Assembly (NCBI GenBank): GCA_029204225.1
Contig: CM055112.1
Span: 23,934,872 to 23,998,871 of the forward strand
DNA length: 64,000 bases
Origin: Diphasiastrum complanatum
Lineage: Eukaryota; Streptophyta; Lycopodiopsida; Lycopodiales; Lycopodiaceae
Reading direction: 5' to 3'
Under the pieces are notes generated by a model. That model was given only the letters and a program-made list of their open reading frames with translations. It made no database searches and was not told the origin of the DNA. Made by a program: the position numbers and the translations under genes. Positions 20,572 to 60,830 of the stretch are shown here, in pieces; within the stretch, counting starts at the first letter, position 1; every line of letters starts with the position of its first letter.

Positions 20572-20577
20572 AAAACA

Positions 20578-21080
20578 TGGCATCAAGGAGACGTAGATCC
20601 ACAATAGACTCTGTCATTCTTCACAATGAAAATGATGAAGCAAAAATTGGATACCAAAAAAATATGCTAAAAACACTTAGGTATTGATGCATATATTATC
20701 AAAAGGAACGCTTCGAAAAAAAAATCCAAGTTATCTTTCAGGTCCTATTGGAAAGCTAGGATTTTTTATTTTAGAGCATCCATTTAGAAGTGTTAGTTCA
20801 ACATGTTTATATGCATTCCGAGTTGAGTATTCAATTTTTCAATCTAAATAATTATAAAAAATAAAATTGTAAGTATCTAAATAATTGTAGTTTTACTTTA
20901 ATTTATCCATCTAAATTTAAATATATATTTAGAACCTCATACTCTAATCTATCATGCAGATTTACTTTTATTTATCCGACTAATTTTAAATATATATTTA
21001 GAATATCATATTTTATTTTATCATGTAGATTTATATCCATCAAATATAAATTAACCCACACAATTATTTATAGGCATAGT
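20578..21080 (+). pseudogene. unknown gene family C, copy 1 (5' part)
   Basis: The first exon begins MASRRRRSTIDSVIL at 20578 and matches the first exon of the reverse copy at 29771 (MAPSRKPCSSIDSVLL). The following non-coding sequence (20740-20900) matches 59860-60000 in order, so introns are related too. The remainder of the gene is missing where a reverse copia element begins near 21080. Function unknown: no domain recognised; the N-terminus is basic. Confidence 0.55.
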
Positions 21081-23295: not shown

Positions 23296-23347
23296 AAACC
23301 CTTGATCCTTGGTCCTTGGACCTTAACTCTTAGCCCTTGAATTCCAT

Positions 23348-24760
23348 TTGGTCAATGAGATTTCAATTGGAAACTCACTAGGCTCTATCTTGACTTCTAA
23401 ATCTATGAAATCAATGTTAAATAATAACAAAATGAAAAAGATTAAGGCTTCAATTACTGATAGCATTATGGATGAAGTTGGAAAAATATTGGACACTACA
23501 TTGCTTCAGGGGGCATGTGACTTTTCTAACATCAGTAGGGAATCATATGCAACAATGTTTAAGATGATAAAGGAGGCATTTGCACAGGTAAATATTAAAA
23601 AGTTTCCAATCCCACGACCATTTCATCTTTAAAAAAAAAAAGACATGTTAAACCACGGTATGCAGACAATAGTTGGTAATTTATCTCATATCAATGAAGT
23701 GTATTGCTCGAAACAAGAAAGTCTAGCATATAACAATTCCAACAATTTATTTATTGACATTAATCAATTATTAACATTCATCATAAATTTTTACGGTATT
23801 ACAAATGAGAATGTCAATAACAAGTTGATAGTTGTTCTCAAGTTAGATGAGTCTGAAATTATAAAAGGACAAAATTTGGAAAGAGTCAGTCTCACAATCA
23901 TGAATGGAGTACTTTTAAATGCAAAAGACTCAGAAGGCCTCAATTTCAGTGTTCAATCAAAAAATGATATCTGGTGGTTGGCAGCATTTCAAATATAGCA
24001 GTTCCTTTGCATAATAAATAGAATATGGATTTCATATCTAAAATCTTCTCTATGTTAATATTATGAGGCTAATCACGTTTTTGTATTCTCTTATAGGTGC
24101 TGAAAGAAGACCATAACATTCTCTCATGGATATTTAGTAGAACATCATATCCTGCCACCATAAAAAATCACATGGAGGGAGTTCCACTCAATATTTCTAG
24201 AGTTGGCACTTTCAACATTGAATGGCATTTAACAGGAGATCTGAAGACATTAAAATGTATGTTCAATGTATCTCATGGCACTAACTCTAAACACCCTTGT
24301 TTGTACTACATGAAAACAACAAAAGACATGACAAGGAGTACATAAATATCAAGAGATCGAGAAGATCCTAATTGAAAACCTATACTACCGATTCCTCTAC
24401 GAAATGTTCATATATGTACATTGCATGTGTATTACAGAAAAAATAATATATCTTCACATCTTGTTTGCATGGAATTCTGAGCCAGAGGCCTTTGCGAAGG
24501 AAGCTATTTCCAGATTAGATGATGTGTTGTCCAAACCAGGCTTACATAAAGGCCACGTTAAAATAAAAAAAGATGACAAGCTATCAAGTAACACAGGAAA
24601 TATTCCATGCAAGTCGAGCATTGGAGGATCTAAAGCTCAAAGATTTTTATCAAATTATTCTGGCAAACAATCTAAGGTTCAATACATGGTTTGGAAAGAA
24701 ATTATTGTAGCAACTCAAGATTTCAGAAGGTTTTACTCGTATACACAGCATTAAAACCAA
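23348..24760 (+). pseudogene. transposase-like gene of unknown family, decayed
   Basis: Coding-like segments follow one another at 23348-23632, 23645-23998 and 24097-24345, then weaker to 24754. Telling phrases are VVLKLDESEII, GDLKTLKCMFNV, then SKHPCLYY, and later NVHICTLHA and GLHKGHVKIKKDD. A GD-x-K ... PCxxC-like stretch followed by a histidine-rich helix recalls RNase H-fold transposases with a cysteine-pair insertion. I cannot name the superfamily. A splice acceptor is plausible before 24097 (TCTTATAG). The gene carries several interruptions. Its 3' end overlaps the 3' end of the convergent family A gene. Confidence 0.4.
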
Positions 24761-25492
24761 TTATATCTGAAAATTCATCAAGCTCTTTGCTCAAAATGCA
24801 AAGAGTCTCAACGTCAGTGAAGTCAAAAAGATCCGATATATCTGATATTGTCAAAAAGAAATTATTATCTATATTATAAATAGGCAAAGTGATCAAAAAT
24901 TTATCAGAAAGAGAAAGGGTAGTGGGTGTTCTAGGGCCTATAAAAGTAGCCCTATTTCGAGCAGGATCAAAATCAGAACAATCATCTAAATTAACACTCG
25001 TATCAATAAAAAAAGTATCTATATCAACAATCTTTGACTTTTCAGACTTTGTACCACTAGAAAAAACTACTTCAGATGTGGAGGGCACAGCCTCCGAATC
25101 GTCAGAAATATTTAACAAAAGGAAAAATCAAAAGCAGACTGAAAATCAACAAATCTACATTTATTATTATGAATTGGGCACTCATCTACAGACTTGAAAT
25201 CATTATATAACTTGGTGAACATTCTGTCAAGCTTAGCTTTATAGATATGCTTGTCGAGTGCCACCAGGTCCTGATAATGAATCATGTCCTTATTCTAAGA
25301 TCTGAATAGAGGAGTACTGAGCAGGGACTTAAATCTGAAATATATTTCAGAAAATGCCTCCACACTAAGGCCCTCAGTTATAGAAGGTAGAATAAAAAGA
25401 AAATGAGAAAAAAGAGATTTGAAATAGTCCAACCTATTAGTAATACCAATTTCATTAAAAAGAAAAAACAAACTGGATTCAAAATTAGACAT
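24750..25492 (-). pseudogene. unknown gene family A, copy 1
   Basis: ATG at 25492 opens MSNFESSLFFLFNEIG, and the frame reads to 25295. Related coding sequence continues to about 24750 with MFTKLYNDFKSVDECP, CRFVDFQSAFDF and a Ser/Asp-rich tail starting LNISDDSEAV. The copy at 31886-32355 aligns over the whole stretch (EFGISENLDYFHSLF, MYTKLFEQFRS, YRFVEYKTGF, HISDDEEF). Conservation of this order in two diverged copies argues for real past coding. No domain is recognised. A consensus TATA box lies at 25709-25717 on this strand, about 215 bp before the ATG. The gene is divergent from the H3-like ORF and convergent with the transposase-like gene. Confidence 0.5.
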
Positions 25493-25708
25493 TTTAAACA
25501 AAAATAACAGAACTAAAGTTCCAAATATCGCTCTCAAGCGCAAACCGCAGGTCATGCGAAGCGCGCTTGAATGCGATACCGAACGATGTAGTATTGGATT
25601 AAGACACATAATAGTCAATGAAAGGTAATGAGAGTAAGCGATGCGCTTGAAATCGATATCAGAAAAAGCAATCGTAAATTTGCATGAAAATCCGAGCCGA
25701 AAAAGACC

Positions 25709-25717
25709 TATTTATAA
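25709..25717 (-). promoter_or_regulatory. TATA box for family A copy 1
   Basis: Minus strand TATAAATAG matches the plant TATA consensus and lies about 215 bp upstream of the family A ATG. Confidence 0.5.
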
Positions 25718-25728
25718 AAAAAAATTCG

Positions 25729-25944
25729 CACGTGTGGAGGAGTGTCGAAGGAACACGTGTCAAATTGTGATTGGTTAAAATAAATGCGCCGTACCTAGAA
25801 TTTTTGATCTGACATCTGTCACGTGCGAGAATGACACGCGTCGATATCGGATTCGCGCACGTGTCTCAACCCACGTGGCCTCATAATAGGGTCATCATTG
25901 TCAGTACAGACATTCCACGTGGATTAATAATCTAACGACACGTG
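25729..25944. promoter_or_regulatory. cluster of seven CACGTG (G-box) sites
   Basis: CACGTG occurs at 25729, 25754, 25820, 25858, 25872, 25916 and 25939. Three of them are the longer ACACGTGT or GCACGTGT forms recognised by plant bZIP/bHLH factors. Chance would give far fewer than one in 216 bp. Two CACGCGT variants lie nearby. Confidence 0.8.
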
Positions 25945-26292
25945 TCTTCGTCATCTTTTCACGCGTGCAAAAATTTTTATATGTAAGTCCTCGGAATATT
26001 CATTTTTTTTCGCAAAATTTTCGCTTTTAGCTCCCGATATCGCTCTCAAACGTGCTCTTTCACCATTCAAGCTTCTGCCTCTCACAATGCGCTTGAGTTC
26101 GATACCGCTGGTTGTTCAATATCACTTTCGAACGCGCATATCTTTTTATCGAATAATCTATCTAGATCTTGCGCTCGAAATCGGTATTCAGTTTTGGTAT
26201 CGATCTCAAGCGCCCTTTCATCGCAAATTTTTTTGTTTTCATCCACTTTTGTTTTGTTCAAACTTCTTTTTGTTAATTTTCTTCTTCTGAGA

Positions 26293-26928
26293 ATGATGAC
26301 CAAGACCAAATCCACCGCCCGTGCCATCACCACTGTACAGCCATCCCATTCTCGTGTTCCCCCTGATACTGGTCGTAGGCGTGGCAGAAAGCAGGTTTGG
26401 CTAAGGGAAGTTAGAAAACTCCAGAGATCAACTGAATTGTTGATTTCTAGAGCTCCTTTCGGCCGATCTGTTCGGAATGTCACTCTGTCACTTGGACTAA
26501 ATGTTCGTTTTGCCGTGACAGCCATGCAGGCCTTACATGGTGCTGTAGAAGATTTTCTGTCCCAGTTTTTTGAGGATACTTGTCTTTTGACAGTGCATGG
26601 TAAGCGTGTCACCATCATGTCAAAGGATTTCGTCATTCTCAAAAGGCTTCGGGACAGATATTCTGGTATGCATGTTGATAATGTCAACACCTCCGTAGAC
26701 TTGCCTTTGGATAGAACCAACATGTCTACTACCTCTAGGAGGAAGAGAAAACAGCCTGTTCCCAAGAAGGCTGGATCTCGAAGGCCAGCTGCTTTCCTTC
26801 CTCCTAGACGTATCCCGGCCAAGAGAACCCGTGTCTTTCTGAGCTCTGAGTCAAATGCTGGAGAATCTGACTCAGATCGAGAATTTTCACCCCTTCCTCC
26901 TCTTGTTAATCGTCTAGCTCCTCAGTAG
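26293..26928 (+). CDS. divergent histone H3-like protein with long C-terminal extension
   Basis: This open frame of 211 codons starts MMTKTKSTARA, echoing the H3 tail ARTKQTARK. Residues 38-122 follow the H3 histone fold throughout: LREVRKLQRSTELLI (alphaN/alpha1), APFGRSVRN, VRFAVTAMQALHGAVEDFL (alpha2), then FEDTCLLTVHGKRVTIMSKDF and LKRLRDR (alpha3). Loop 1 has canonical length, so it lacks the usual CENH3 insertion, though APF and KDF recall CENH3. Residues 123-211 are an extension found in no H3 I know: basic (SRRKRKQPVPKK, RRIPAKRTR) then acidic/serine-rich (SSESNAGESDSDRE). The frame continues in the same register beyond the stop into a Ulp1-like region. The first ATG was chosen because it restores the H3-like tail. 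It is more GC-rich than its surroundings. It could be a captured, rapidly evolving H3. Confidence 0.7.
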   Translation: MMTKTKSTARAITTVQPSHSRVPPDTGRRRGRKQVWLREVRKLQRSTELLISRAPFGRSVRNVTLSLGLNVRFAVTAMQALHGAVEDFLSQFFEDTCLLTVHGKRVTIMSKDFVILKRLRDRYSGMHVDNVNTSVDLPLDRTNMSTTSRRKRKQPVPKKAGSRRPAAFLPPRRIPAKRTRVFLSSESNAGESDSDREFSPLPPLVNRLAPQ

Positions 26929-28215
26929 GTTTCATCACCAAAAGTGTTGATTACCCAAGAGGAGCTACACAAAATAATAGAAAAATCTGTAAATATTGTT
27001 TCCACTTATGTCTCTGCTCCTGTACATAATCTTTTTGTGAGAATTCCATACGATTCAGCCCAAGTTTTTTTTTATTCTGACCATTATAATCAATACGAGA
27101 CCTACTTAGCTAACAAAAATGATCTTCTTGAAACTTTTTTGATTTTTTTCTTTTAGATACACGTAGAAGCTTTAGATTAGGTCCCAAATTTTCTGTCGAG
27201 CTACAAGATAAGACCTCAGAAATTTCATATGCAATAGTAGAGGCCGGAGTTTCTTTTTTGTAGAATAGTATTAGTTTCGATTCCCATGGTACAATTTTTG
27301 TAGTTATTCCATTTTTCATGGGAGCGATAAAGACGAAAGAAGCCAATTTCGAGAAGGCTATCTATTTCATCGAGTGCAGTCCTATGGCGAAATTCTATTT
27401 GATTCCATATAAAAATAAGTAAGGATTGCTCTTTTGTTTTTGTTGCTTTAATTTGGATTGTTGCGTGTTCATTGCTTTAATAAGAACAATTTTTTTTTAT
27501 AAATATGAATTTATCGATATTTGTATTTTGGTTCTTGCAGTCGGCATTGGAGCCTAAACATTCTTTTTGTAAAGATAAATAAGGAGGGAGTATCAAATTT
27601 TCTATGTGTAAAATTAAACTCAGCTACAAATACACATAGAGAATTTGATTCTCTACTTCATGATGTCGTTCGGAAAATACCGACAACGACAATTTCAATT
27701 CGAGAGATAACCATTAAATCTCTCAAGGTATATTCAATTTATCTCTGATATACATGTATTCCTTTTTTAATTCAAATGTATCGTCATAGCATAAATAAAA
27801 TTTCTATCATTATATTACTAATTTTCGTTCTATATATGCAGTGTGTACAACAACAAGACGCTTTTAGTTGTGCATGGTTTCCTGTACAATACGAAGCTAT
27901 TTTTTGAATGGTATAGTTTACAAATGGATGTAGATATTGAAAAGATAATATTCTATTCATTTGTAGTCCATTTCATTCTGATTCATATTTTATTACTATC
28001 ATTGTTTATAATTTGCTGATTCTCATATTTTGTGATGACAGTTCACTCTTGAGCCGTATACTCCTGATGATGTATATAGATTTTGGCAAGAGTTGATCAG
28101 AACCTATGCCCAGTACGGTGTAAGCGTTGCACTTGCAATCGAGGGCCCTCAAAAGGAAGCTGCTCCAACCTTAACAACCTTTCAGCTTGTTCAGGATGCA
28201 GATCTTATTTTATAA
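26929..28215 (+). pseudogene. Ulp1-like (C48) cysteine protease region, multi-exon, decayed
   Basis: Candidate exons with good splice signals are 27157-27418 (ends at GTAAGG), 27541-27727 (TTGCAG before, GTATAT after), 27842-27910 and 28042-28215. The phrases KFYLIP, then RHWSLN across the first junction, DSLLHDV, and QQQDAFSCAWF give the H-W ... Q-x(n)-S-C order of SUMO-protease-like C48 peptidases. The usual catalytic Asp is not obvious, and the Gly after the Cys is Ala. The last exon ends LVQDADLIL. C48 proteases are common passengers in plant DNA transposons. Reading frame 26929-27156 continues directly from the H3-like ORF. Some interruptions exist; activity is doubtful. Confidence 0.45.
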
Positions 28216-28400
28216 GCTCAAAAAAGAATAAAAGTCCTTCCTAATACAGAGGAAGACAATTTTGTAACAGATATTCCTCTTGCCTTAAAAGGCATTGAGA
28301 CCCTTCCCGAAACAGAGGAGGGTGAGATTATAAAAGGAGATGGTGCCTTATCAGTTTCTAATACTGATATAAAAAATATAAAAAAATTGATTGAATAGAG
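28216..28400 (+). other. acidic open segment downstream of the Ulp1-like exons
   Basis: The plus strand continues for about 60 codons with Glu/Asp-rich phrases (LPNTEEDNF, LPETEEGEIIKGD). It may be a former 3' exon or coding tail. No domain. Confidence 0.25.
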
Positions 28401-28760
28401 ATCTATTCGAAAAAAAAAGATACAATCATTTTACTTGTAAACAATCCGTTTATGAGTTTTTTTTTATTGATATCACAATAGATGCTTACAATCAGCTTGT
28501 GTCCATAGTCTAATACTGGAATGCAAGTTTTTTATAATGATAAAAAGACATGATGATTGGCATGTATTTGCTGATAGTGAATTTCAATGTTCTTCCATAA
28601 GTTGGATTGTTTTGCCAATATCTCTGCATTTGATCTCGAGCTCATGTCTTTTACGTACCGCATAAAACTAATACAAAGTTAGTTAGAATTAGTACAGAGT
28701 TTGTATTAGAAAGTTTTGATTGAAAATATTCATAAAAGATTGAGTGTTTACAGTTATGAG

Positions 28761-29771
28761 TTAACCATTGAAAATGAATCTGAAGTCTAAAAGTACATCA
28801 TCTTGTAGGAGCAGTAGTTCCCGCCAGATGTAGTTTAGACTCCAATCTTCTTCCACCTCAACACATGTCAAAACAGCATCATTGTATATAATTTCAATAT
28901 TTTTTCGTTTTGAATGTCCACTGGCTTCCAAGTGTTGATCGAGTGGCATCCATTTACCTTTATTTTTTTTTTCCATCTTTGATAATGGAAGCATAAGCTC
29001 AACATTTATTTTTCAATTTGATAACGGAAGCACATGGAAGACATTTTAATTCTGCATTCTATTTCTCCATCTGATCTTTTGTCCCAGCCTTCATCCATAA
29101 GTTCAGATAATAAACTATTTGATAAATTTTTGCATACAAACATCGTTGGGATTTTGTCTACATTGACACTTGAAAAGAAATCCACAAATATATTCAAGGA
29201 AATAAACCAACTCAATCTGACTGTTTTTTATCTTGTGCTCATTTTTAATGGATTTTTTACATCATTATATATCTTGCAACGAAATGATTATGAAACTGTA
29301 GCATCTGGTGCAATCCATTCATCACTTTCAAAACTAGGTAATGAAATTGGTACTATTTGTCCAAAATTTTCTTTTGTATCAGGAATGTATATTGATTCAT
29401 AAAAAAAGATCCCACTATCAACTAGATCTTTTGCAGTTCTACCTCGATATTGCAGTTGTCCAATATCAGTGTGAATAACATCTAACACACTTGCTAAAGA
29501 TCCACTCGGCTCTCATTCATTTATGTTGGATGGATATAAATCTGAAAGAAAAAAATGATCAGATTGGCAAGTTTACTATTAGATATTTATGAATGAATCG
29601 AAATGATAGTTTTGACTTTTTTCTTTTTTGAAATGCTCCTCTTGATGATGGATGCATCAAAACCCAAGAGTTTTTCGAATTATTTCTTGGCACCCATAAT
29701 CCATTATCATCTGTCTCGTTGAATAAAAGCACAGAGTCGATTGAGGAGCACGGCTTCCTTGATGGCGCCAT
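28761..29771 (-). pseudogene. unknown gene family C, copy 2 (most complete)
   Basis: The first exon starts MAPSRKPCSSIDSVLL at 29771 and ends near 29582 at a GTAAAC donor. A second exon starts at 29488 after GTGTTAG and contains HTDIGQLQYRGRTAKDLV. Further coding at 29215-29006 has PTMFVCKNLSNSLLSELMDEGWD, and 28994-28761 has VEVEEDWSLNYIWRELLLL. The same blocks in the same order occur at 59700-60830 on the plus strand (VGKLHYRGRTPKGL, PILFVCKDLLDDILSDLMDQGWD, IEVEEHWSLHYI). Conservation of protein blocks rather than DNA suggests past selection. No known domain recognised. It faces the H3/Ulp1-like gene tail to tail. Confidence 0.55.
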
Positions 29772-29899
29772 TCATAATTTGCGTGCAAAAATCTGAAACA
29801 ACGAATTATGAATCTGAAAATTTGCGTAGACAAAAAGCCATGAATCTGAGAAAAAGTGTTGGCAAAAATTTGAAATACTAATCTATTTGGTGCCACAAA

Positions 29900-30296
29900 T
29901 TAACTCTAGTTAACCTTGTTTTACCATGGTTTGACAATGCATATGCATTAATGGTACATCGATTTTCTCATCTCAACCATCTGTCATATTCATTTCCAAT
30001 ATTTTTGGGTCTCTTTGGGCAGTGATGTGCTGGAAGGACAGGCCTCATCAACCAATAGCATTTCCACATCCTGCCCAACGAAACAACAATATATTTAAAA
30101 AAAAATTATTTTATTTATATTTGAAAAATTCTACGTTACGTAGAACCCTGAAGCTAAGGTTTCAATTGGTCCACATGGCAACGAAAATAAGAAAAAAAAT
30201 AAAAACCAATTTAAACAATCTTCCATGTTTAAATCCCTTTGCAATGCTAACATCATTCTTCAAAATGAAACAAACACCATTTTTAAAGTGGACATC
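29900..30296. other. AT-rich spacer
   Basis: Nothing recognised between family C copy 2 and the reverse copia element. Confidence 0.4.
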
Positions 30297-31885
30297 CTAA
30301 CCACTTTCTAAGAGTAGACCAACACTAAGCATATTCTTGGTGATTGCTAGTACATAAAGGACATTTTCTAGATGCATACTTATTGAGGATTCTAGATACA
30401 AAGAGATGGTACCAACACCATCTATCCTACACTCTTCATCACTTGCAGTAAAAAGAAATTTTTTACCATCATTGAATGAGTGTAAGGTTGAGAAAAAGTC
30501 CTTTTCACAAGACATGTGAGAGCTAGCCCCACTATCAATCCACCATGTATCTCTTGAATTGCCATTGCTTGTTGGTGAGGATGTAGATGCCAGCAAGGAT
30601 ACATCAACTTCATCCTCCTCCTCCTCATGTGCAAGGCTTCCTTGTTTGTCCTCCTCTTGTGCTCTTAGCCTCTTGTAGCATTCGAATGCATAATGCCCCT
30701 TCTTTCCACAAAAGAAGCATTTTTGCTTTGACTTGTCCTTTGAGCTTGATGTGTCATCCTCTTCTTTGGCCTCCTTTGGATGCTTCTTCTTTCCATTGGT
30801 CTTCTTTTTTCCCTTGAATGAGAAATTGGCTTTCTCGTCTCCATCCTACAAAGACATTGAACTCATTCTTGCTTTATAGTTGGCAAAGTGTCTTGAATGG
30901 CAAAACTTTGGACCAAATTTGCAAAGTCATCTCCTAGACCATTAAGAACAATTTGTACAAGCTCTCCATCATGAATCTTCTCTCCAATGGAAGCCAACTC
31001 CCTATTTAGAGACTTGATTCTAAGCACATAATCCTGTGCACTCTCCTCACTTCTTCTCATGCTTTGCAAAATCTGATTTCTAAGCATGAGGACTCTAGAA
31101 GTGTTGCTAGATTCATAGATTGAATTTAAAGACTCCCAATCCTCTTTAGCACTAGTACATCTTGGTACTTCTCTCAACAAATCATTGCTTACATTCATCT
31201 TCACACAATGAAGTGCAAGCCTAGATCTCTTCTTGTATTTAGCTGACTCTTGTGCACCTAGAGGTTCATCTTCATCCTCAATCAAGAAATCATAAAGGTC
31301 TTGAAGCACCATGAGTGACTCCATCCTAACCTTCCAAATAACATAATTAGTAGAATTCAATCTCTCACTAGCTTCTAGAAGCTATGCTCCAAAAGATCCC
31401 ATCTTACTAGTGAATTCTACACACAAGAAATTGATTTGATTGATTTGAAACTCACAAAGGTCTCACACTTGTAGTGTTTCACTCAAATTTGATTTCTAAT
31501 TCAACAAATGAATTTATAATCACAGTTCTATCACTCCCTTACAAAGTTGGAATGAAGATAGGATGATGTGAAATTTACTTACAATCAAATCTTGCCAATT
31601 TTTCACTCTATTGACTACTCTTGAGAAAATCAATGAACACAAAGTAGATTGAAATTCTTGACCCTCCCTAAGTTCTTTTCCAGAATTTTCCCACTAGAAA
31701 CTTACTTGAAATGCACAAAGATTCAAGTAACAAGATCCCCTTGATATTGATTCAAAAGAACTTTTTGGAAGGATCCTACAAAACAATGCTCAAGAAAATT
31801 GGTTTTGATTTGGACCTAGAAACTCACAAAGGTTTCACTTTGTCGTGATTACCTCAAATTTGACCCTCAATGCATTTATGAGTTT
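30297..31885 (-). mobile_element. Ty1/copia fragment E: leader, gag, protease start; reverse, broken
   Basis: Minus strand, in order: a leader (31885-31420) containing a diverged direct repeat of its own (ACTCACAAAGG at 31449 and 31822), then gag (31360-30863, with TNYVIWKVRMESLM and NDLLREVPRC). A protease/pre-integrase part follows (30596-30297, with WWIDSGASSHMS and ENVLYV). Same family as copia A. Reverse transcriptase and LTRs are not identified. Its right edge cuts into the beginning of family A copy 2. Confidence 0.88.
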
Positions 31886-32648
31886 GGAATTTCTGAGAAC
31901 TTAGACTACTTTCATTCCCTATTTCGCCCTTTTCTAGATGGTTTTAAAACTGTGCAACCCAAGGTTGAAGTTTTTTATGACCACTATGTTAGATTCAGGG
32001 ATATAGTCAGTAGACTTGTTATCCCCATAGGTCCTCTCTTCTTCATGCATTTTACTGATCTTGTCCATTTCTTCCCGCAGTTCAAGCAGAGACTGGAGAG
32101 GATGTATACTAAATTGTTTGAACAATTTAGAAGCACTACTATGTGTGTTTTATGTAAGAGAAAATATCGTTTCGTTGAATACAAGACTGGGTTCATATTT
32201 TTTCGTTTAGTTCATATCTCGGATGATGAGGAATTTGTAGATTCGGATCCTCAGATCGTCTCATCCTTAGTTCCATCATCCTTAAAAGATATGAGTCACT
32301 TCCTTATCGACACCCCTGATAAGGATAATGATTTCTTGATGTTGATACTGACGTGATTCGGGATTGTTTCATTGACTCAAATATTATTGTTGATGAATCA
32401 ATGTCTGAATGTTTTTCATTTTGCGTGTGTATTATGTAAGTATATATTAATACAGCGGATTTGTGTAAGTTATTGTAGAATTTGAAACCAAAGACTTGGT
32501 GCCTGGAATTGATTATGATGATGAGGATGGACTTCTGACGGGTGAACAATGTCTGACGAAAGCTTTGTCGGATTTTGTTGATCATGGACGAAGCATGCCA
32601 TCTAAAGAAGAATTCATGGCAATTCAATCCTGGCCATGTAATGTGTAA
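31886..32648 (+). pseudogene. unknown gene family A, copy 2
   Basis: The coding-like stretch 31886-32355 begins within the gene (GISENLDYFHSLF) because the copia element occupies its 5' side. It continues with FYDHYVRFRDIVSRL, MYTKLFEQFRSTTMCVLCKRKYRFVEY and an acidic region (ISDDEEFVDSDP). A probable second exon, 32476-32648, follows a TATTGTAG acceptor and reads KDLVPGIDYDDEDGLLTGEQCLTKALSDF to a stop. It is the diverged counterpart of 24750-25492. No known domain. Confidence 0.5.
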
Positions 32649-32659
32649 TGTAATCCTTG

Positions 32660-35600
32660 GCCCAACAGTCTCTTACGAATTTGACAAATGCAATGCAATG
32701 GTTTTGTAAGTTATTGATATTTGTAGCTGATAAATTATCTTTTCTAATAACACCTATCAGTACGTCAAAGTTTTTCCAAACTTCTACTTTTTTTTTTATC
32801 TATGTAGCTCCCCTTTTCTCAAAATCTTATGATTAAATAGAGATCTTACGAAGATTTAAAATATTTTTTACAACCATTATACTTAATGGGCTTATTCTAG
32901 ACCCTAAGGGAGTACTTCACATTAGGGCCTAAGTTTTTTGAACCCAAACCATTAGTTGATACATAAGCTTGTATAGTTACCAACAAATAGGACTCTTTGG
33001 ATGGTTAGTCATTTAAGCCTAGGTGATTTCAACCCTAAGTCTTAACTTCCAAAAATTCTCCTAGGGCATGTAGAGTATTAACTAGCAAATGAGCATGATT
33101 GGTAGATTTCTCTGATTTCCAACTTTAATAACAAGCTGAATACCGCTAGTACTTTAAGGAGATTTTTTATTTTAAAATTTATTTGTGAGTGATGCCAAAG
33201 TATTAAGAGCAAGTGCAAATGCACATAGACCCAAGATTCTTGGTCTCAGATAGAACTGTTGGTTTAAATCTTACAAAATATTTATTAAACATGCTTTTGA
33301 GAGCATTATGATAAAAAAAAAAATCAAGAATAGAATGTACAATGAGTTTATATAGCAATACAATCTCAACAAAATAGCCATTGAAGGCAACAATGTGCAT
33401 CAAGCATACCAATCTATTATTCTTGATCATGTATCTACTCATACAAAGACATTCTTACAAAGTGTAAATTTTGATTACATAGAGATCCTTTCCATAGAGG
33501 CCAACACTAGAAATTCTAAGACATAGTCCCATGTTCAATCAATAAGTCAACAATTATAAAGCTATAAACGCCCCATTTTCATTTAAGTGGGATGCAAAAC
33601 ATCCTTTATGCATGTAGGAGATCATTTTTTAAACTTCATTTCCTCTACCCCTCTATCCTTGTGTTCTTTCTTTTTTTCCCCTTTTGTTTGTGATTGTCTT
33701 CTACAATTATAAGACAACTACTTGCAAAAAGTACATTTGATAAAGTAAACTTGATACATGGCACACATACACAAATTGATATAAGGTCTCATTTTTTTCT
33801 TTCTTTCAAGTAGTCTTGCTCTTGGTTGCAGTTTTGAAATATGTTTTGAGTTTTTGATGGAGTGCTCTCTTGTTGATGAATCTTACGCTTAGGATGATGT
33901 TATTTTAAGAGATCTTCTAAGACTCGATTTGATAAACCTTGTTGCAATTAAACATTACCTTAATCATTTTGTTGTCAATGATAAAGCATGACGATAGCTA
34001 AGAAGATTATAAAACAAGTTTGATTATGTTAGTCATTAAATGTTGCAATCATATTAAGTTGCCTCCTTTGCACTTCATCAATCAACCTCCTCATAGGTCT
34101 TGCTAGTAGTTTTTCATCCTCATTGTGTCCTCATTGTCAACAACAAAATTTCAAAATTGTATGTATTATAACTATGTTCATTTCAATTCTAGTGTTGACA
34201 AACTCAAAAAAATAGTTTGGCTCATAGTTCATTCCTTCTTGATGCTTTATTCAACTTTGTACAACTAGTGCATATATGCATATGCTTCGTCCATGCAGAT
34301 GCACTCAATTTTTAACAATTCCCCTTTCTAATTCGTATCATTATCCAATAATGTCCTCAAACAAAATAAGAGATAGATTATGCTAGAAAATATTGTTGAC
34401 TTGGGAGATTTGTAAACAATTCACTTAGCCTCTAGCTACTATCATGATGCCTCTCATGAGAATTTGTTTTTGCATGAACTTTTAAATGTATTGCTCGTAG
34501 TATTACAAAAATGCAATAAATTAATATTTATAGGCTTCAACATGGTTCTATACAAATTTAAATGGACCACCTTGACCATTAAACATATGTTACTCTTATC
34601 CTATATGTCCATGTGTGCATTAAGTGAAATCAAACTCCAAACCTTGCAACAACTAGAATTGTCAATTAACAATCCACTTATTCGTGGGTGTCATAAAATA
34701 TCCATGTCAAGTCTAGGATAGTAACCGGCATCACAAAGGAGACTTGCAATCTTCAATCAACTTAGCAGAGTCCATCCACAAAGTTCTAGATCAAGAGCTC
34801 TATCGTGCATTGCATAGACTAAATGTTACAACACGAGAACTCTGTACTCATGTCATCAATGCCCAAGATTTACTGAAAGTCATCCACGAATATACATTCA
34901 CATTATTAGCTTCATATATTATTACACAAACTAGCATATTAAGTATCTCACACTTTTTCGGCATAATAAGGAAATCATAGAATAATAAGAAAATCTGATA
35001 ATTCATTTATTTATCTTGCTCACCTATTGGGCAGAATACACCATAAAATCTAGAAATAGCAATAGCTAGTTGGCTGCAACTTGGACGAAAATTTCTGATA
35101 ACTTATAAGCCTAGTGTCACACGCATGAGATTTTAAGAATGGACTTCCCCAAGATATGATAGACATAAATGCAGGTGGACTCGATCTTATTTTGGATAAT
35201 GTAGTAATCAATCTTATTGAGCATATGGAACTACGGTCTCTCACCACTTATTGAGATGTAAGTGAAATACCACAGGACCTCCCCTGGGAAGTGGACTTAA
35301 CCTCATTCTGGCATCATTTCTTGCCACATAGGATGCAGCATGTTAGGTCTTACCTTATCTGAGGTGGGAAGACCACTTCAAGTGGCCCCAACCAATAGGA
35401 GGAGAGAATTTTGGCCTTCTACCACTTATCGGGCTCCTATGTAAAACCACCCTAGTCAACTTAATAGAGTTTCATCACTTGAACAAAGGGTGGTGTTCTA
35501 GCAACAACATAAACATGTGTCGCACATTGCAACAACATATGAAATCCCAGCATGCATCGATAGACCAATAGAACAGCAAATTTTAGTCACACGAATTTTG

Positions 35601-41869: not shown

Positions 41870-42650
41870 AAAGACAGAAATGACTTACCATACATAGGTG
41901 GCAAACTCTCGTAACATTTTCATATCACAAATGGCAAAAAACACTAATTAGATAAAGAATTTCATCCATAAATTTAGAGTAGTCTAACAATCCAAGAATG
42001 AAAGCCACAGCAACATTCACAAAAGAGAAATGTGCACGACTATGATCATTCAATCAAGTGCAATTTATCTAATGCATTCTGAAATGAACACCAGTTCTTT
42101 GTTGCCTATAAAATAAAAAGCACGATATGGGAAGTGCCTCACATTTTAAAAAGAGACCTCAACGTGCCAACTACAAGTGGGACAGGCTGACCTGGGAAAG
42201 TACATGAATGAAGGTTTGCGGTAAATCTAGCTTAGTCCATAATGTGGTGGGGAGAATCTATCTTTCAATGGAAGAAGAAAGCTTATAAAGAACTAATCCA
42301 TGAATGCCTTATCCTGTTGCCATCTCCAGGCTTTTAACTTCTGAAGATAATTTTTGGTTTTTATAAGCATTTTCGTATGTGTCTTCAGGTGAGATGCGTT
42401 TCTTTTTGGGGGGAAATCACTTTAAGCTTTCAAAACATTTCAAGGTGCAAACTGATAGCTTGAGGAGCACATTTTAACTATGAAAACATATGAAAACACA
42501 CGAGTAGCACCCAGAATCAACAGCCAGGTACTGCTGTTGCTAGAACGTGGCAAGGAGCTCGTTTGATGGCTGAAATTTAACTGATCATTGAAAGGCCAAA
42601 AATGTATGTGAAAGTTATCAGCGTCAAATAGACAAAAGATGAGTACTTTA
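41870..42650 (-). other. intron sequence near the TRAF-gene donor
   Basis: No repeat or gene recognised. It probably represents original host intron. Confidence 0.4.
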
Positions 42651-42651
42651 C

Positions 42652-43581
42652 CTTCTCCAGTAGCATAAGCCGTTCGCCTTGGCTTTCAACCGCTCCCTCT
42701 TGGCTCTGGAATGCATGAAGAAGGTACAGCAAATGGGGACCCATCAAAGTAGAGCAATGTTGCTCTAAAGTGCCCTGAGGGATCACATGCGTGCAGCCAA
42801 CAGTGCTAAAAGGGCAATTCACCATCTTCATGGGGCAAACACTACCACAGTGAGCAATCATCTCACTTCGCATAATTTTGGCGTCACATTCCTGCTTGCA
42901 AGGCAGCAACTTGAAAGGGCATGATGCATCATGTTCTGCTCCTTGCCTGACAGAAAACACACTTTCACAGCCCTGGTTTTCGCATATCACTGGCCTCAAG
43001 GAGCATTTGCTTTTGTGCAAACCAAGCTCTTCAGCAGACAACAGATTAACCTCACAATGATAAGTTTTGCTCTTGTCCAATTTCCTGACTAGGGTTTTGG
43101 CAAATGTCTCACGTTGCCCGATCATCCAGACTCCGGCACGATCAAGCTCAGACACAACCTCCTCGATCTTCTCATCCGACTTCTCCATGAACATAATTTT
43201 ACTGGAGACAAATCCGAAAAGATTTCTTTTCGATCGCACGAAGCCGTCCAGAAACTCATTCACAATCTTTGAAGGCATTACCATGGTTCGCCTGATCTCT
43301 GAGCTATAGGACTCTGTCTGCTGCCGCAGATAGTCTATCATCTCACGCTTTACATCCGCAGCAACAGACATGGGGCGCTTGAACATATCCCCTGTTGTCT
43401 TTTCCATGCATGCTGCAGCCAGAGTACGCAGCAATGCCCACTCAATTGTCTGCACCTGATCAACATCAACATACCCACATTCTGAAGGTGCAGATGGAGA
43501 CCCAATTGCTTCCAGCATGTCTGCGTTGCCACCAACCTCTTCGCCCCCTCTGGTTCTGCTTCCTAAATCTACCTTCAGCAT
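42652..43581 (-). CDS. TRAF-type zinc-finger protein, first coding exon
   Basis: The exon encodes 310 residues from ATG at 43581; an in-frame stop lies just upstream. Residues 45-160 match the uncharacterised N-terminal region of a plant TRAF-type zinc-finger family (ACMEKTTGDMFKRP, SVAADVKREMIDYL, FVRSKRNLF). Zinc-finger ligands follow in TRAF order: C200, C205, H217, C221; then C228, C232, H244, C249; then C256, C263, H275. The exon ends LMLLEK at a GTAAAG donor, phase 0, and joins the coiled-coil exon at 36195. TRAF-type fingers mediate protein contacts, often with ubiquitin machinery; this plant subfamily's exact role is not known to me. The sequence is uninterrupted and looks functional, the clearest host gene here. 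Confidence 0.9.
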
Positions 43582-43599
43582 ACCCACTCACCACACCAC

Positions 43600-59569: not shown

Positions 59570-60830
59570 CCATTGCTCAAGAAAATGGCGTGATAGAGGT
59601 TGGGGTGAGTCATCCTATGTCGTTTTCATCCAATTTGTTTTCTGTTGTTTTTCGTGGCCGAAAGGCAGATCTGGGTAGGGGCAAGAGCTTCACAATGAGA
59701 AAGATGAAGCTGATAAGTGAAAACCAACAAAATATATGAAAAATTCATGGGTGTTGTTGCATCCATCATCAAAGGGAAATTTGCAACAGAATAAAAGGGC
59801 AAAGATGACATACAAAATATTTCTGGAAAGCAAAAAATTTGGAGTTTAAGACAACTTCCGGAGGTCACTCTATATCAAATTTATTAGTACAACATATTTG
59901 TATGCATTCGGAATTAAAAGTACAAGATGTAAATCTTCATGATCATCGAAAATGTAACTGTAAGTATATTAAAAGGTATGCACTTTATTAAAATCATAGG
60001 TGTTTTTTGATTGAAGCTCTTGAGATTATGATTTAAATTATCAAAAGTGTTTCTTATTTCAAATTTATATCTATCAAACATAAGTGAATAGGAGCCAACA
60101 CAGTCACTTGTAGGTATATTGAATGCGATTCACTCTGATGTTGGAAAGTTGCATTATAGAGGAAGAACTCCAAAGGGGCTTGCAGTCTTTATGTATTCCA
60201 CAAATGGATGGGAGTTTCGGTAAGCTTGAAGCAATTCCATTGCCAAGTTTTTAGAGTGATGAGTGGCCTACTCTTGACAGTATTGTTTTTGAATCCTTCA
60301 GATGCAAGCTACTCTTAGATGTTAAAATTGCCATGAAGATAACTATCGGATCGAAAATTGTTCATCTAAGTTGGTTTCTCTTAGTACATACATTTGCTGA
60401 TTTTTTTCAACTGCAAGTGTTTGAAGGACACCAATTCTATTTGTTTGTAAAGATTTATTAGATGATATTTTGTCGGATCTTATGGATCAAGGCTGGGATA
60501 GTAAGACAAACAAAGATATAGAATGTAGGAAAAAAAAAGTCATCAGTGTTTTTTCATTATCATATCAAAAAACAAATGCTCAATCTCACATTCAGCTATT
60601 AGAGATTCAAGAAAACTAATGGTACTTGGCTAGGTCACTAGATCAAGACTTTCAAATGGATGGTCACATAGACCTAAAAGAGATAAACATCATACACAAT
60701 ATATAATTTCTAACTATGATTGAGGTGGAAGAGCATTGGAGCCTTCATTATATTAGAGCAAAACTCATCCTATTACAAACCAATCTACCCACTTATTTCA
60801 GATTCATCATCAACAAAAGACTTATAAGTA
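59570..60830 (+). pseudogene. unknown gene family C, copy 3
   Basis: Blocks shared with the reverse copy at 28761-29771, in the same order: HSDVGKLHYRGRTPKGL (about 60140), PILFVCKDLLDDILSDLMDQGWD (about 60435) and IEVEEHWSLHYIRAKLILL (about 60720). The intron-like stretch 59870-60000 also matches copy 1 at 20750-20880. The first exon is not clear. Interrupted; function unknown. Confidence 0.5.

Follow-up and report, generated by a model that had tools for sequence, protein, structure and literature searches.

The window analysed here, a stretch of 64,000 nucleotides from Diphasiastrum complanatum, contains a copy of a repeated unit in which an open reading frame (ORF) with a histone H3-like domain is followed by exons that resemble those of Ulp1-type proteases. 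Judged from its inverted ends, the unrelated sequence that flanks it and its many copies, this H3-Ulp1-like unit is a DNA element with terminal inverted repeats (TIRs), and comparison among the copies supports a single reading frame shared by the H3-like domain and the Ulp1-like region in copies other than that of the window. Kinship of the downstream exons to Ulp1, and with it a putative protease, is suggested by motifs that lie in the order seen in that family. The joining of an H3-like domain to a SUMO-protease-like region suggests that the element may make a chromatin protein of its own.

A multicopy element with inverted ends

The 1.74-Gb source genome was searched with the H3-like ORF, which returned 7,705 first-look candidates; when the best 150 of these were scored, 149 besides that of the window matched at 77-94% identity, with E values of at most 4.1e-99. 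Twenty copies, including that of the window, were fetched with their flanks, each having been picked as stop-free over the H3 part, and most of them share kilobases of common sequence on both sides of that part, with less shared in L012 and L028. The complete copy L020 measures 9,920 bp between the ends CATTAGAGAAA…TTTCTCTAATG, which are inverted repeats of one another at 25 of 31 bases. The right end (...CTCTAAGTTTCTCTAATG) is followed by unrelated flanks in nine fetched copies, sister copies among them. The left end (CATTAGAGAAAATATGGGCCC...) was located in L020, and the flanks beyond it are unrelated in the fetched matches, except in the second assembly copy of the L020 locus. In the wider genome, 39 of the 40 scored left-end matches begin at base 1, and 38 of the 40 scored right-end matches reach the last base of the query. 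Five complete copies (L020, L024 and another three inspected by eye) showed no target site duplication at their edges; in L020, a 4-bp match that lies two bases away from the boundary on either side was taken as chance. The original prediction that the histone rides on a mobile or duplicating unit is thus borne out by a high-copy repeat with inverted ends and unrelated flanks.

Alignment of L020 to the window by blastn gave four collinear blocks of 89-92% identity and placed the window copy at 23337..30205 on the plus strand. This copy is truncated at both ends, and compared with L020 it lacks 1,360 bp at the start, 46 bp at the end and 1,351 bp in the interior. Besides the H3 gene, it holds the multi-exon remnant of gene 1 (23456..24751, plus strand), which is homologous to plus-strand ORFs of L020 and has no Pfam match above cut-off; the decayed gene 2 (24723..25711, minus strand), recognised from its ORFs as divergent to the H3 gene, with no Pfam family, a paralogue at 31820-32353 and an open counterpart of 242 aa in L020; and the decayed gene 4 (28764..29771, minus strand), likewise with no Pfam family and with a diverged relative at 59724-60732. 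Six-frame Pfam scans, which would miss undescribed or decayed domains, found no MULE, CACTA or hAT transposase domain in the 20.5-35.5 kb part of the window (E<=0.01) or in L020 (E<=1). Three pieces of gene 1 in L020, located some 3.8-2.8 kb upstream of the start of the H3 part (LDES..., GDLKTLKYMF and ITHYM), are what we take to be echoes of DDE transposases.

Sequence related to parts of the element was also observed elsewhere in the window. A relative of genes 2 and 1 lies in inverse orientation at 31820-32799, beside a Copia remnant. The gene 2-like ORF at 31820 returned 5,653 first-look candidates in the genome, the best 150 of which were scored at 58% or more identity, and on account of these matches a large and diverse group of related elements seems to exist; the same ORF had no relative in the protein database, a collection that is seemingly thin in plants. 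The segment at 59724-60732 is 64% identical to the gene 4 region, and the plus strand at 20574-20684 resembles the start of gene 4 (43% over 28 residues), inverted with respect to 29562-29771. A stop-to-stop frame of 336 codons on the minus strand at 42577-43587 presumably bears a likeness to a TRAF-type zinc finger protein.

The H3-like domain and its reading frame

The H3-like domain and its C-terminal extension occupy 26293..26928 on the plus strand, comprising 211 codons with a likely start at 26296 and a TAG at 26926-26928. An H3 fold had been predicted at residues 38-122, and searches of family and structure databases agree: Pfam Histone matches residues 5-116 (E 2.5e-23, 83.1 bits, cut-off 26.4), and the best PDB matches are solved H3 chains, with E values of about 1e-19. 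Aligned with Arabidopsis H3.3, the fold is identical at 42 of 88 positions and has no gap, and in the same alignment the K27/K36 segment of H3 has no clear counterpart in the window ORF. Structure prediction added no support to these matches, as the AlphaFold model of the window ORF, made without an alignment, had a very low confidence (mean pLDDT 42.5) and was discarded as evidence for the fold and not used for fold searches.

The predicted echo of the H3 tail is likewise present: from the second ATG (26296), MTKTKSTARA aligns with the MARTKQTARK of H3. Tail residues were counted in 22 copies, namely the 20 fetched copies with L003 and L006 added; L007 and L008 were left out as look-alikes of L006, and L001, L002, L004 and L005 as lying at the same places. 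MA is read at this tail start in 19 of the 22 copies. The residue equivalent to H3K4 is Lys in 21 of 22, that equivalent to H3K9 is Ala in 20, Lys in 1 and Val in 1, and Arg occupies the K56 site in 20 of 22. The N-tail as a whole is shorter than that of H3. At the other end of the ORF, the C-terminal extension is basic and then rich in Ser, Asp and Glu, as had been described, but it is not unique to this ORF, being shared by the other aligned copies.

An 18-row tree (91 columns, with only 2 of 15 inner branches firm) placed the H3-like element family on a single long branch of its own (100/100), separate from H3, from CENH3 and from a second H3-like family. This second family (L039-L043) combines a proline-rich N-terminus with an H3 fold whose aligned part is 53-55% identical to H3.3, and no Ulp1-like region was recognised downstream by eye at any of its five fetched loci. 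Among the genome matches listed, there are many more H3-like rows at 44-55% identity, none of which was seen among the best 150 element matches, and at least 13 full-length H3 rows, 97-99% identical to H3.3, are carried elsewhere in the genome. A protein database search with the H3-like ORF returned two H3 proteins only, the collection being seemingly thin in plants, and pattern scans of viral contigs and of prokaryote genome contigs found no close relatives.

The original prediction held that the same frame continues into protease exons, which fails for the window copy and stands for others. In the window, the TAG at 26926-26928 closes the H3-like ORF, after which its frame is open to 27156, spanning the linker (26929..27155, plus strand); exon B (27156..27418, plus strand), which contains a TAG at 27261-27263 in the window copy, and the H3 ORF are in different frames there and in the same frame in L020. 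In the alignment of the copies to L020, codon 212 reads Gln in 14 of 20 copies, His in one and a stop in five, and because of this Gln majority we read the TAG that ends the window ORF as a lesion. Two of the five stop copies are the window copy and its sister L010, and those with TAG amount to at most three lineages (L009/L010, L019/L021 and L015). In L011, L013 and L020 (three of the 20 copies, with L011 and L013 near copies of each other), a single frame of 372 codons runs without a stop from the H3 start through the linker to the end of exon B.

Three further exons follow on the plus strand: exon C (27541..27727), which bears the His motif HWSL; exon D (27842..27910), which bears the Gln/Cys motif QQxDxFSC; and exon E (28042..28212), predicted as a downstream part of the same gene and matched in other copies. 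The GT/AG sites of exons C and D recur in other copies, and in the window copy and L010, its sister, exon D has an end that reads differently from that of most copies. Exons C, D and E were matched in 17, 16 and 15 of the 20 copies, respectively, some of them incomplete, and the letters of their splice sites are mostly identical. The two halves of the gene also keep company across the genome, contrary to the outcome that had been named as refuting the fusion, namely that they never occur together. When 12 Ulp1-exon loci outside the H3 match list were sampled by 321 bp each at the expected place, 8 had an H3 fold and 4 did not, and the best-150 lists for the H3 part and for the Ulp1 exons have at least 26 loci in common at a spacing of 1.0-1.3 kb (counted by eye, and including a few duplicate assembly copies). 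The fused H3-Ulp1-like reading had no relative in the protein database, again in a collection seemingly thin in plants.

The Ulp1-like region and substitution patterns

The exons downstream of the H3 part had been predicted to show a C48-like order of motifs, and in the window copy HWSLN and QQQDAFSC indeed stand about 70 residues apart (counted by eye), amid further stops. An assignment to Ulp1 from the window copy alone was rejected, as its protease reading has no Pfam match at E<=10 and its exons, taken singly, do not outscore randomised DNA. Spliced, the window reading scored 9.3 bits on a profile of five Ulp1/SENP sequences vs at most 8.0 bits in shuffles, in a test of 2000 shuffles, 1,558 of which were given a score, and with exons chosen with the motifs in mind. 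The reading of L020, in which an X was placed at that copy's own stop, matched Peptidase_C48 (PF02902) across exons B-D, His and Cys motifs included, with an E value of 0.0027 and 18.0 bits, below the curated cut-off of 20.7. Peptidase_C48 was matched in five of eight copies, which are not independent of one another, and no other family was matched at E<=1; the E value of L020 is like those of two matches to gene 1 pieces that were dismissed as chance (BLYB, E 0.003, and RGI1, E 0.0026). A profile of the eight copies found no Ulp1 in the PDB at E<=10, and profile-profile comparison with Ulp1 returned a probability of 17% over 22 columns.

The downstream exons share with the Ulp1/SENP proteases the HW.L, QQ....C order and a sub-threshold Pfam match. 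His, Gln and Cys are present in order, and the Asp site has no clear alignment. The downstream exons differ from these proteases in scoring below the cut-off and in probable changes at two usually conserved active-site positions: the Asp may be Asn, and Ala stands after the Cys (read by eye). We consider kinship to Ulp1 likely, since the motifs had been predicted in advance and occur in the proper order; the recurring splice sites and the Peptidase_C48 matches in five of eight copies speak for the C48-like assignment, and the failure of these matches to reach the Pfam cut-off speaks against it.

Pooled pairwise dN/dS was calculated from 17 copies, with L009, L013 and L021 left out as near copies. 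The H3 fold gave 0.45 (codon bootstrap 0.29-0.71; 0.425 in a run with 19 copies), the extension 1.00, the linker 0.70, exon B 0.57 and exon C 0.83. Read out of frame, the H3 fold gave 0.42 (+1) and 0.92 (+2), and pairwise dN/dS was rejected as proof of selection on the strength of the +1 control. Since 526 of the 763 changes among copies are C>T or G>A, as in methylated copies, transversions alone were counted. The non-synonymous to synonymous ratio of transversions in the H3 fold was 0.52 in frame vs 1.04 and 1.09 in the other frames (one-sided Fisher p = 0.064); it was 0.34 in the tail (5 synonymous and 5 non-synonymous changes), 1.21 in the extension (0.89 and, in frame +2, 0.61), 0.80 in exon B (other frames 0.86 and 1.50) and 1.12 in exon C (1.04 in frame +1). 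Ratios like that of the H3 fold can arise by chance, given the 0.61 of the extension in frame +2. Neutral simulations of the divergence of the H3 fold remained stop-free in 130 of 3000 runs. These figures suggest constraint on the H3 fold, and exon C looks neutral by its dN/dS and its transversion ratio.

Promoter array, known systems and possible function

The divergent promoter at 25524..26213, in which a motif scan found the 18-bp motif GCGCTTGARATCGATAYC in both orientations, lies upstream of the H3 gene. Scanned as GCGCTTGAGAGCGATATC, the motif has no site in the window outside this interval at <=3 mismatches. In all 20 copies, 3-8 sites (<=4 mismatches) lie within the 800 bp upstream of the H3 gene, and none lies elsewhere in the 7,950 bp searched per locus. 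The promoter of the window copy also has 7 CACGTG boxes at 25729-25944, and 19 copies have 3-8 such boxes, with 0 in L027. A promoter segment of about 0.5-0.6 kb is duplicated in tandem in L016, L018, L019 and L026. In the parts of the VANDAL literature that were covered, VANC is described as binding arrays of short motifs in the elements' non-coding sequence, with loss of silencing (PMC5735166, PMC10398659), and its target regions also form tandem repeats (PMC10398659); the arrays there have one orientation, in contrast to the H3-Ulp1-like element, where the motif occurs in both.

The suggested novelty of a histone on a mobile unit did not hold. H3-like genes occur in hAT elements of the fungi Pyrenophora tritici-repentis (PMC3538342) and Pseudocercospora fijiensis (PMC6710886), where, as in the present case, a multicopy DNA element encloses the H3-like gene within its inverted ends. 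The fungal elements have a hAT transposase and, in P. fijiensis, an 8-bp target site duplication, and no protease fusion is seen in the covered parts of the two papers (PMC3538342, PMC6710886), whereas the present element has no hAT domain that was found and no target site duplication that was seen, carries H3 in frame with a Ulp1-like region and resides in a plant-like genome. Ulp1-like genes, for their part, are known from plant MULEs (VANDAL; PMC13317346) and CACTA elements (PMC2528002), so far as the covered portions of these sources go, and the KIU/VANDAL MULEs and CACTA-ULP elements are, like the present one, plant DNA elements with a Ulp1-like gene. The Ulp1-bearing KIU genes are placed in the anti-silencing setting of VANDAL by a review (PMC13317346), and VANC/KIU proteins are tied to silencing loss at motif arrays outside the coding sequence of the elements (PMC13317346, PMC2528002); the word 'histone' is absent from the main text, as covered, of both papers, and the present element differs from those they describe in that no MULE or CACTA transposase was found in it. 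Transposon-borne H3 in fungi and transposon-borne Ulp1 in plants are each already known, and no H3-Ulp1 fusion was recognised in the literature, as covered by titles and abstracts and by open-licence PMC text.

Our preferred reading, at a little under an even chance, is that the fusion protein serves the element as an accessory chromatin factor and reduces silencing of the element's own copies. The fusion could instead be a passenger, the element having captured an H3 gene by transduplication along with a Ulp1-like fragment, with little or no function in the resulting ORF. We regard this as a real if minority possibility, to which the like-scoring BLYB and RGI1 matches and the 0.61 frame control moved weight from the chromatin factor. 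In favour of a passenger, exon C and the extension show the ratios of neutral sequence, the evidence for constraint on the H3 fold falls short of significance (Fisher p 0.064), the copies have decayed (526 of 763 changes C>T or G>A), and the H3 copies of the P. fijiensis hAT are, in the covered part of that paper, all inactivated save the original gene (PMC6710886). Such a passenger is harder to reconcile with an H3 frame and K4 context that are kept though around half of the fold positions depart from H3, with the 130 stop-free runs in 3000 neutral simulations and with the transversion ratio of 0.52 in the H3 fold.

The remaining readings carry little weight. That two separate genes are involved, the H3-like ORF stopping at its TAG and the Ulp1-like exons lying on another transcript, is quite improbable: the window and four other copies of the 20 do have a stop at codon 212, but the TAG copies are at most three lineages, the codon is Gln in 14/20 and His in 1/20, and the frame is open through exon B in L011, L013 and L020. 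Plant CENH3 and H3 variants resemble the H3-like ORF in joining an H3 fold to a divergent tail, and its LIPxAPF and AxEDF echo plant CENH3. An origin from CENH3 was nevertheless not supported, given the family's own branch (100/100) and the want of a loop-1 insertion, which follows from the gapless alignment of the fold to H3.3. It is extremely improbable that the ORF is an H3 variant of the host, with a centromeric or gamete-specific role, and only happens to sit among repeats, as it is mobile, stands in high copy inside a bounded TIR element, is fused to a C-terminal region and forms a separate long branch in the small tree, and the genome has its at least 13 full-length H3 rows, 97-99% to H3.3, elsewhere. 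Large DNA viruses carry histone genes and Ulp1-like protease genes, and in a virus-like element the two products would serve packaging or maturation. This reading is very improbable in view of the introns with recurring splice sites, of the six-frame scans of the window part and of L020, which found no Pfam capsid, polymerase or ATPase (besides Copia in the window), and of the pattern scan of viral contigs, which found no close relative.

Plants silence transposons largely via H3K9 methylation and DNA methylation. As an accessory chromatin factor, the fusion protein would be encoded by a TIR element of about 10 kb and would consist of an H3-like fold, a basic/acidic tail, a linker and the Ulp1-like protease region, its gene being divergent to a second element gene across the promoter with the 18-bp motif array. 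Its H3 domain would put the protein into nucleosomes, or dock it on nucleosomes or on H3-H4 chaperones, and the Ulp1-like region would act there on silencing proteins, taking off or binding their SUMO-type modifiers. The element's own copies would consequently be less silenced, as VANC/KIU proteins achieve for VANDAL elements, and it is on this analogy that the proposed mechanism is based; we infer that the gene is expressed, that its protein is active and anti-silencing, and that the protein is linked to the motif array. A more specific version, which we consider unlikely, is that of a self-encoded anti-silencing nucleosome, in which an H3 mimic that keeps the ART-K4 end, is without the K9 and K27 sites and is fused to a SUMO-protease-like region would be recruited via the 18-bp array, replace or dilute silenceable H3 and strip off SUMO-dependent silencing factors.

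If the anti-silencing role is true, an H3-like domain of the element's own that lacks the K9 site, together with a deSUMOylase-like region, would constitute a counter-measure at the level of the nucleosome. The H3 partner would point to chromatin as the substrate and would make testable why transposons repeatedly gain Ulp1-like domains. The element also indicates that transposon-borne histone genes are not restricted to fungi.
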